The notes beneath the pieces are model-generated. The model searched no databases and was not told where the DNA came from. It saw only the letters and a list, made by a program, of their open reading frames with translations. The translations under genes and the position numbers were made by a program. Below, in pieces: positions 21,523 to 41,703 of a DNA stretch of 64,000 nucleotides; within the stretch, counting starts at the first letter, position 1; every line of letters starts with the position of its first letter. Source of the stretch: Desulforapulum autotrophicum (GTDB lineage Bacteria > Desulfobacterota > Desulfobacteria > Desulfobacterales > Desulfolunaceae); contig DYJE01000025.1 of the NCBI GenBank assembly GCA_020723285.1, forward strand, positions 1 to 64,000, in the 5' to 3' direction.

Positions 21523-21559
21523 GTTCAACTCCCGCAACGGAAAAATCAGCAGGTCAACG

Positions 21560-39055: not shown

Positions 39056-39116
39056 GGATAACAAGGCTTTTGCAGCGGAGCGCAAAAAGCGCGCCCGCTG
39101 AAAAGCGACGTTAGCC
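39056..39116 (+). other. attC site 1
   Basis: R'' GGATAAC (39056-39062) and R' GTTAGCC (39110-39116) bracket a long hairpin. The arms GCTTTTGCAGCGGAGCGC (39066-39083) and GCGCGCCCGCTGAAAAGC (39089-39106) pair almost fully around an AAAAA loop with one extra GC. This is the folded-recombination-site architecture of integron attC sites, and at 61 bases it is a normal length. Confidence 0.75.
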
Positions 39117-39149: not shown

Positions 39150-39596
39150 ATGAAACAAATTCAATATTTAATATTGCTTTTACTGTTTTCAGGAATAGTT
39201 TCAGCTTCACAAGCAAATCAGGTAATCGATCAGATTGCCGAATCTCATATTGATGGAAACGTGCCAGACAAATCGGATTTTGATTCTTTCATGCACCGTG
39301 ATTTAGAAGTCTATTTCAAACGTGTAACAGGTAAGTTGGTTGATATTCAATACGAATTCCTTAGAAACGGGCCTACCCAAACAGGTATCGCATATCCGAA
39401 GTTTTATTTATGGGTAAAGATATTTGAAAACAAAAGCCTCCTTGACCAAGGGGCGGTAAGGGTTGCAGCTATAGAAAAAAAGCGTTTTGAAATAACGGAT
39501 TTTATAGGTAAAGGTAAAATCGAACAAAATCCGGATTCCATATTTATGGTATTCCCAAGACCTGTTTGTGAAAAGATTAATGAAAAGATAAGATAA
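39150..39596 (+). CDS. Cassette 2: small secreted protein, unknown function
   Basis: A 148-residue exported protein with signal peptide (about 1-21, ending SQA) and AAGGA upstream of the ATG. The mature domain is a mix of strands and helices, for example YFKRVTGKLVDIQYEFLRNG and KFYLWVKIFENKS, with one Cys near the C-terminus. I recognise no family. The gene begins 33 bases after attC site 1 and ends 9 bases before the R'' box of attC site 2, so it fills one gene cassette. Base composition is AT-rich. Confidence 0.72.
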   Translation: MKQIQYLILLLLFSGIVSASQANQVIDQIAESHIDGNVPDKSDFDSFMHRDLEVYFKRVTGKLVDIQYEFLRNGPTQTGIAYPKFYLWVKIFENKSLLDQGAVRVAAIEKKRFEITDFIGKGKIEQNPDSIFMVFPRPVCEKINEKIR

Positions 39597-39647
39597 AAAA
39601 TTATTGGCTAATCGGGTAACCGGGGGTTTTTCTCCCCCAGTCCCCAC

Positions 39648-39679
39648 ACCACCCGGCATGCGGGTCCGCACCGGGCGGT
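39648..39679 (-). ncRNA. Group II intron domain V
   Basis: The minus strand reads ACCGCCCGGTGCGG, then ACC, then CGCATGCCGGGTGGT. The outer ACC-CCCGG pairs with CCGGG-GGT and the inner TGCG with CGCA around a short loop, as in catalytic domain V. It lies directly downstream of the reverse transcriptase remnant and upstream of a domain VI-like stem. Confidence 0.65.
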
Positions 39680-40569
39680 TCACGAAGTCACCTTGGCCGT
39701 AGCCGGGTAGTGAATGCCAACCCACAGTTGTTTGATGGATATCAGACCCTGTTCCTCAAGCCATTTGTCGTTCAACGCAAGTTGTGTGGCGTAGGTTCTC
39801 GATAAATCCCACGGTCCTTTGCGACTCATTCCGACGGCAATCGCCATGTCGAGGGGGCAACCCAGTTGGGTGAGATTTTTCACCTTGGTCCGGGTTTTGC
39901 GCCACCTTTTCCAGTAACACATCCTTACGGGCCGTCTCAGCCATTGATCCAGTTTCGGTATCGGTTCGTAATACTCCGATATGCCGTAATAGGCCATCCA
40001 GCCCCGGACGTATTCGGCGATTTTCTGCATCCGGTACTCCATGGATACAGACCAGCTCCGTCCGGTGAGCCGTTTCAGGGTATGCTTGAACTCGGCAAAC
40101 GATTTCTCCGTCCACCGGATTTTCTTTTTGATAAAAGTAAATCCGAGGAATGAGCACCGCTCCACACGATCAACACGGCTTTTCTTCTCGTTCACGATCA
40201 GCTTCAGCCTGCTTGTGAGGAACCGTTTGATGCTTTCCATCACACGTTCCCCGGCCCGCATGCTCCTGACCAGAATCGTGAAGTCGTCGGCGTATCGACG
40301 GCGATCCGGTAGCCCTTTTCGATCTGCTCCTTCACCGATTTCACGGCCTGGTGTGCCGACCGTCCCGGCCTGAACCCATAGCTGTTCTCCGAAAACCCGG
40401 GATCGAATATCCCGGTAAGGATCTGGGCGATGGATTGCTGTATCAGCCGGTCCAGCACGGTGGGGATGCCGAGCGGACGCTTGCTGCCGTCCGGCTTGGG
40501 GATTTCCACCCGCAGGACGGGTGACGGGGTGTAACGTCCTTCCATTAACGCGTGTTTGATCTTCTGCCA
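39680..40569 (-). pseudogene. Group II intron reverse transcriptase/maturase, internally deleted
   Basis: Two frames give parts of one IIC-type enzyme. Near 40569-40294: WQKIKHALMEGRYTPSPVLR, VEIPKPDG, GIPTVLDRLIQQ and SYGFRPGRSAHQAV (reverse transcriptase motifs 1-2). From 40297 in another frame: RYADDFTILVRS with the catalytic Asp pair, SFLGFTF, and the maturase segment RGWMAYYGISEYYEP. About 90 residues that should lie between, including the first catalytic Asp and the PQGGPLSP motif, are missing at the junction near 40295. The N-terminus before WQKIK is also lost. It cannot encode an active enzyme. Confidence 0.85.
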
Positions 40570-41084
40570 TCATACCGTTAAATATGAGTCATTTAACGTT
40601 TTATGTGTATCCAATGTCAGTACGGCTGAAAGGTATGCCCATGAGAAAGATTCGTTCCGCTATTCGAAGTTGAGCGTTGGACGTTGGGTGTTGGACGTTA
40701 TCACGTTCATTCATGATTAAACACGTCAGAGTATAAACGGTTTTACATGCGATTGCCCTGCCGCCTCGCGGCGACGCCCTTGCCTTAGGCTATTTAAGTC
40801 TTTGGGACTTAACAAGATTCACGTAAAGAGGACTTCCAATCACAACGATTGGGCACCTCATTAGATCACGCCCGTGCCGGGCGTACACAAAAAAATGCAC
40901 GTGACCGGGCGGGAGCGTGCAGTGTTTTAAGGACTTCTTTTTTCAACCATTTTCGTTTACTGACCGTTTTCGTAATTCGCCGCCCGGCCCGTGATTTTAG
41001 CGTTAGCACACAATAAAATCCTTGCGCCACACATCATATACGCATACAATATAGCATCAAATAAAATGCGACAGGAGGTGCCCA
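40570..41084. other. Gene-free stretch: intron 5' half, attC arm and cassette 3 leader
   Basis: About 515 bases without a gene. It holds the remaining 5' structured part of the group II intron (to 40888), including the direct repeat at 40676-40699, then the right part of attC site 2 (to 41008), then a 76-base leader ending in AGGAGG before the antitoxin gene of cassette 3. Confidence 0.6.
40676..40699. repeat. Direct repeat of GTTGGACGTT
   Basis: GTTGGACGTT occurs at 40676-40685 and 40690-40699, separated by GGGT. The same 10-mer is part of the dispersed repeat at window position 38-47. It lies where the reverse transcriptase N-terminus should be, so it may mark the sequence that replaced it. 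Confidence 0.4.
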
Positions 41085-41363
41085 ATGGCAATTAGCATAA
41101 CTGAAGATATTCGCTCAATCACAGACCTTAAACGAAACACCAATGCGGTTCTTGATCAAATTCACAAAACAAAGCGCCCAGTTGTATTGACCGTCAATGG
41201 CAAAGCAGAGGCGGTGCTTGTTGATGCGAAAGAATATGAGAAGATTACAAATGCCTTTAACCTGCTGAAGCTGTTAGCCCCGGCGGAGGAAGACATAAAG
41301 GAGGGCCGTTACACCGAGGCACTTGATTTTTTTAAGGAATTTAAGCGTGCCAAAGAAATTTAA
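41085..41363 (+). CDS. Cassette 3: Phd/YefM-family antitoxin
   Basis: A 92-residue antitoxin with AGGAGG upstream of the ATG. The N-terminal DNA-binding domain is typical: TEDIRSITDLKRNTNAVLDQ, RPVVLTVNGKAEAVLVDAKEYEKI. The C-terminal tail (about 60-92) is helical and should cover the toxin. The toxin start lies inside its 3' end, an overlap of 17 bases, so the pair is coupled. Toxin-antitoxin pairs are frequent in integron arrays, where they help keep the array. Confidence 0.9.
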   Translation: MAISITEDIRSITDLKRNTNAVLDQIHKTKRPVVLTVNGKAEAVLVDAKEYEKITNAFNLLKLLAPAEEDIKEGRYTEALDFFKEFKRAKEI

Positions 41364-41649
41364 AATTCACCTAACCCGTAACGCTCAAAATGATATAGAG
41401 CATATTTTTTTCTATATTGCCTCCGACAACATCAATAATGCCAAAAAGTTCATACTGCAACTGGAAGAGAAAATATACAGCCTGGACACATCTCCTGAGC
41501 GCTGCCCTCTTATTCCAGAAAACTTTTTTTGGAACACAAACTATAGGCATCTCATCCATAAAAAATATCGTGCCATATATAAAATCGAAAATGACTCCGT
41601 GTACATATTAAGGGTCGTACACGGGTCAAAGTTGCTCGAATTGCGCTAA
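41347..41649 (+). CDS. Cassette 3: RelE/ParE-family toxin
   Basis: A 100-residue toxin. GTG 41347 with AAGGA 8 bases upstream is preferred to an ATG at 41323. The fold signature is clear: FKIHLTRNAQNDIEHIFFYIA, a helix-rich middle, then YRHLIHKKYRAIYKIENDSVYILRVVHGSK, where the Arg and His match the RelE/ParE core. The C-terminus LLELR is typical of ParE-like members, so the target may be gyrase rather than mRNA; this is not resolved. Its stop TAA forms part of the R'' box of attC site 3. Confidence 0.88.
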   Translation: MPKKFKIHLTRNAQNDIEHIFFYIASDNINNAKKFILQLEEKIYSLDTSPERCPLIPENFFWNTNYRHLIHKKYRAIYKIENDSVYILRVVHGSKLLELR

Positions 41650-41703
41650 CCTTTCGCTCCACCCGACCTATCTCCGCTCGGCCGGTGAGCGTTTACGTTA
41701 GCA
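41645..41703 (+). other. attC site 3, right end of the cassette cluster
   Basis: R'' GCTAAC (41645-41650) overlaps the toxin stop codon, and R' GTTAGCA (41697-41703) closes the site. CGCTCCACCCGACC pairs imperfectly with GGCCGGTGAGCG. The total is 59 bases, the classical length of a 59-base element. Confidence 0.72.

Follow-up and report, generated by a model that had tools for sequence, protein, structure and literature searches.

A group IIC-attC intron remnant, interrupted by a MITE-like element, in a cassette attC site of Desulforapulum autotrophicum

A 64,000-nt stretch of Desulforapulum autotrophicum DNA (the window) carries on its minus strand, from 40886 to 39611, a group IIC-attC intron remnant of 1276 nt that interrupts the R'' box of an attC site in a gene cassette. 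It is very probably a decayed retrointron that was inserted into the attC bottom strand, later suffered a MITE-like insertion and deletions, and now neither splices nor moves. The group IIC intron in an attC site proposed by the sequence-only reading is borne out by domains V and VI, the RT/maturase, both ends, and a TTGT/T target in R''. Both ends were aligned with full-length relatives, and the junctions read TTGT/GTACGCCC ... CCCGAT/TAGCC.

The 3' end (GGTTACCCGAT) is placed at 39611, and together with domains V and VI it occupies 39611 to 39680 (minus strand), as expected of an IIC-attC intron. RF00029 matches at 39680 to 39611 with 43.9 bits (gathering score 40; E 5.9e-7 for the smaller stretch searched). 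Despite this above-threshold score in the region search, RF00029 is listed nowhere in the whole 64-kb window at the gathering threshold with fast filters. The domain V-VI fold has an energy of -44.5 kcal/mol against a shuffle mean of -31.0 kcal/mol (z -3.82), and 0 of 200 shuffles folded as well. The sequence-only reading had recognized the 3' end and the two domains correctly.

The 5' end, 126 nt from the first part of domain I, lies at 40761 to 40886 (minus strand). It was placed by alignment with 12 relatives and by a second 5'-end remnant in the same genome (L060 1885-2174; C4:18384-18673), which interrupts a comparable attC at the corresponding position, with TTGT. The sequence-only reading was right that a 5' end is present, but its coordinate of 40888 (GTGTACGCCC) has to be moved 2 nt inward, to a GT/GTACGCCC junction at 40886. 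The comparison set consists of 13 full-length copies with placed ends (1888-2062 nt long): ten from a search of 389 genomes, one from a Methylocalor plasmid, and two from clinical integron plasmids; two of the copies share one genome. L119, the second copy in the genome of L101, stands outside the end alignments (12 relatives) and inside the 13-copy junction count. The intron start can be read as GTACGCCC in the 13 copies (one with GTACGTCC, another with GTACACCC), TTGT forms the four bases 5' of the intron in 10 of 13, and T directly follows CCCGAT in every one. The boundary at 40886 is right because the flanks of L094 (behind aadA2 on a Klebsiella plasmid) give an attC R'' box on joining only with GTAC as the first bases of the intron, as judged against the sequence of the uninterrupted aadA2 attC. 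With this boundary the window exon reads TTGT/T, which equals the published IIC-attC intron target within R'' as given in PMC7923331.

The attC in question belongs to a cassette whose gene (39150 to 39596, plus strand, 148 aa) has no family match. On the plus strand, GGCTA at 39606 to 39610 makes up the first five bases of R'' and AC at 40887-40888 the last two; the remainder of the site extends over 40887 to 41008 and ends in R' GTTAGCA (41002-41008). When the flanks are joined at 40886, R'' GGCTAAC is regained and faces R' GTTAGCA; in the folded bottom strand of the joined sequence the R boxes pair (-20.3 kcal/mol, DNA parameters). The bottom strand of 40887 to 41008 is the 5' exon of the intron, and the T-run there is TTTTTTTGT. 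The fold of the joined flanks thus confirms the earlier description of the upstream exon as an attC hairpin plus a T-run, and the attC bottom-strand preference invoked with it agrees with the TTGT/T target in PMC7923331. The intron occupies R'' of the bottom strand and is oriented against the cassette genes, the position and orientation of an IIC-attC intron. The array comprises at least three attC sites and, downstream of the intron, a Phd/ParE-type toxin-antitoxin cassette (Pfam). The attC of the upstream neighbouring cassette is at 39056 to 39116 (plus strand; bottom-strand hairpin -20.8 kcal/mol) and that of the toxin-antitoxin cassette at 41644 to 41703 (plus strand; bottom-strand hairpin -16.3 kcal/mol, R boxes paired). 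These neighbouring sites were recognized by eye and by folding; a stricter automatic scan gave two pairs, at 21523 and 43871, neither of them convincing, and passed over all three attC sites discussed. The array may be a CALIN, a cluster of attC sites with no integrase beside it: a single integron integrase scored over the cut-off (contig C5, 458.5 bits), and none is listed on C28 in this assembly, which is in pieces. The protein of the upstream cassette was found in 1 of the 389 genomes of the order searched, namely the window's own, and no sister strain turned up in which the site is empty. The split R'' should stop the integrase from using this attC.

After 126 nt the intron gives way to a repeat. 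Positions 40572 to 40760 (minus strand) are a repeated element and not intron: a 189-nt part of a MITE-like element, carrying one of the terminal inverted repeats and 95-97% identical to three other places in the genome. The earlier reading had missed this piece, as it had missed the frame-shifting size of the RT deletion described below. Complete copies of the family, 367 and 368 bp long, are found at C12:87720-88086 and C57:25798-26165, and there are partial copies, including one from C80:153968 onward. The inverted ends begin CAGGGCAATC, with two pattern mismatches at one C57 end, and 10-bp direct repeats flank the complete copies (10 of 10 bases equal at C57, 9 of 10 at C12). The family has the properties of a MITE, being a short repeat with terminal inverted repeats and flanking direct repeats, and 367 or 368 bp leaves no room for a long ORF. 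It also contains a AACGTCCAACG-type motif that is scattered through the genome.

Past the MITE-like piece the intron resumes inside the RT. About 650 nt have been lost in between (counted from alignments, about 660 nt relative to L098 and somewhat less relative to L100); they comprise the remainder of domain I, domains II and III, and the start of the RT. Given how group IIC introns are laid out, the exon-binding sites would be located in the lost stretch. When nine full-length relatives were scanned at E<=0.1, RF02001 matched in all nine and RF01998 in eight, and RF00029 was listed for six. In the window, RF02001 and RF01998 have no match at E<=1 or at E<=10 (L098 served as the positive control at E<=10), and the truncated C4 copy, scanned alongside the nine relatives, matches none of the three models. 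Complete domains I-III are absent, and the element is therefore a remnant and not a working member of its group. No Rfam model covers the whole span (70 of the 1276 nt match), which the sequence-only reading would have counted against an intron; the missing match is due to decay, not misidentification, and the identity is not overturned.

The RT is split into two pieces, which match the TIGR04416 profile at positions 45-127 and 211-353, so that 83 internal positions are absent. The first piece, at 40295 to 40571 (minus strand; also PF00078 1-70), covers about RT1-RT2 and lacks the RT start. The second, at 39683 to 40297 (minus strand), runs from YADD to the maturase (GIIM) domain in a different frame. 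Neither fragment reaches the TIGR04416 cut-off (300 bits), which is normal for partial sequences, and the GIIM domain scores above its cut-off (65.8 bits). These fragments, together with the tree described below, identify the class C group II RT/maturase of an IIC-attC intron. The N-terminal loss amounts to as many as 44 profile positions, since the scan of the first piece began at MEGRY and homologous DNA starts about 25 nt before it. Between the pieces, at 40294 to 40295 (minus strand, exact to within a few nt from alignment with relatives), 253 nt have been deleted relative to five of the six relatives compared, and about 255 relative to the sixth. The 253-nt deletion is not a multiple of three; it shifts the frame and removes RT3-RT4. 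The DxDLxxFFD motif, which we take to hold the first catalytic Asp, is present in the longest ORFs of 12 of 13 relatives and absent from the window RT, which retains YADD and the maturase domain. No intact RT with all catalytic motifs is present, since 83 positions are missing and the frame is shifted. The RT is dead, as claimed earlier, on the evidence of the missing internal and N-terminal positions, the absent motif and the frame-shifting deletion.

The final structure is observed, and from it we infer the order of decay events. A group IIC-attC retrointron would have inserted into the bottom strand of the cassette attC, as the junction suggests. Later a MITE-like element probably entered domain I. 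Its far half would then have been lost along with the remainder of domain I, domains II and III, and the start of the RT, and a separate 253-nt deletion would have taken out RT3-RT4. Judged from the sequence, neither the ribozyme core nor the RT could form, and the remnant should therefore neither splice nor move. Its remaining effect would be the splitting of R'' in one attC, and otherwise nothing.

The RT fragment has matches at E<=1e-40 in 22 of 389 genomes drawn from the class, the window's own included. The tree has 44 rows, built from loci with one tblastn piece of at least 166 residues, with one row per identical sequence; it contains neither copies of the window locus nor L045 (frameshifted RT over two pieces). 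The window RT fragment pairs with L098 of the same family (97/99) within a 20-row clade (99/99), and three plasmid integron introns adjoin this clade at 90/64 inside a 24-row group (99/97). L045 (2231-4166) is a full-length intron on a Methylocalor plasmid, with its frameshifted RT annotated as two proteins. On a 3.5-kb Geobacteraceae contig, L011 shows the 3' end of a IIC intron and, about 740 bp away, a 5' end motif of another (1254 and 1996); adjacent cassettes may each contain an intron there. A crude R'-like motif (C/T-TAAC) occurs within 130 nt upstream in 6 of the 13 full-length copies, and the upstream hairpins with T-runs of certain relatives resemble terminators; the attC setting is not common to all relatives. 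One could read the window copy as a terminator-inserting IIC intron whose arrival in an attC hairpin was accidental, as opposed to an intron dedicated to attC sites, given these terminator-like hairpins in the clade, the R'-like motif in only 6 of 13 copies, and a link to the clinical IIC-attC introns supported at just 90/64. We consider this unlikely, as the insertion is at the exact R'' position with the TTGT/T target, and the second copy in the same genome is at the same point of another attC.

The sequence-only reading had suggested looking for full-length relatives elsewhere in the genome. In the assembly (5.44 Mb, 92 contigs, 97.16% complete), searches with RVT_1, GIIM, RF00029, intron DNA and a domain V-VI model (R1) found fragments and no full-length copy, and an intact copy could hide in a gap of the assembly. 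In the genome search with RF00029 (150 of 392 first-look candidates scored) the window copy was the only one among the matches listed. Model R1 gave at least five 3' ends (150 of 2337 first-look candidates scored): one each in the window and on C66, two on C23, and on C1 a weak one scoring 26 bits; weaker 3' ends may be hidden in both searches. At least five intron fragments thus exist besides the window copy, four 3' ends and the C4 5' end. The four further 3'-end remnants, L058 1474-1717 and 2384-2632 (C23), L059 1075-1149 (C66) and L061 1397-1494 (C1), range from 249 nt down to a 75-nt domain V-VI unit, and all are outside recognized attC sites. The two C23 remnants are 910 bp apart with a similar 5' truncation, and T follows all five 3' ends, the window's included. 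These four may be 5'-truncated retro-insertions. About 140 nt into the C4 copy, the intron is broken by a sequence that recurs at the ends of contigs C12 and C10 and whose reading frame looks like the start of a small transposase. A broader proposal, that the IIC lineage survives here as short 3' units made by 5'-truncated retro-insertion or trans mobilisation, with the window copy as one such substrate, strikes us as very unlikely. Among viral contigs eight stretches matched a pattern, none encoding a relative; phages gave no match; and 471 plasmid records had a match, with 0 covering 80% of the query.

The chance that the remnant has kept a regulatory use, for example as an outward-facing promoter, or as a terminator, serving the adjacent cassettes, is slim indeed. 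Outward promoters are a known topic for IIC-attC introns and were reportedly treated by Leon et al. in 2010 (cited in PMC4424553), but in 39590-41090 a sigma-70 type scan found one promoter-like site, outside the intron, against 1.3 expected, and one terminator-like site was found against 2.1 expected. A leftover promoter or terminator was accordingly rejected, the site counts being not above chance. The earlier suggestion of a ribozyme still capable of splicing, or of moving in trans, with an intact relative supplying the missing domains and the RT, is very unlikely: domains V-VI and both ends are preserved and PMC3410883 deals with functional tripartite group II introns, but the region of the domain I-IV Rfam matches is absent, most of domain I and domains II-III having given way to MITE sequence, and profile, RNA-model and DNA searches of the 92-contig assembly, within the candidate limits given above, found no intact helper.

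We conclude that the remnant is real and is an ordinary genomic fossil of a known kind. Its contribution is one more decayed copy of an IIC-attC intron, from an environmental cassette array, and the 2-nt junction correction fits this copy exactly to the known target. It also illustrates one route of IIC-attC intron death, by MITE-like insertion and deletions. According to PMC4424553, the majority of group II intron copies in bacteria are truncated or inactivated, and nothing known therefore needs revising.

The nearest relative, L098 (genome G004, full-length, 2014 nt), has 73-74% RT identity and shares the TTGT/T target, and it differs in having a complete leader that matches RF02001 and RF01998 and a longest ORF of 426 residues. 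S.ma.I2 is a named example of integron group IIC-attC introns. Those compared here, L092 on pIMP-FS1505 and L094 behind aadA2, share with the window copy the class C RT, domains V-VI, the R'' TTGT/T site and the orientation opposite to the cassettes; in contrast to them, the window copy has lost the greater part of domain I together with domains II and III, and from its RT both the start and RT3-RT4, and its RT fragment is just 44-50% identical to theirs. Likewise decayed are UHB.F1 (IIC-attC) and H.ha.F1/F2 (IIB), reported in PMC7923331 as introns in cassette arrays or CALINs; according to that source one of them, which seems to be H.ha.F1, has also lost RT3-RT4 by deletion. UHB.F1 and H.ha.F1/F2 are described there as 5'-truncated, whereas the window copy retains both ends and is broken mid-way by the MITE-like element.
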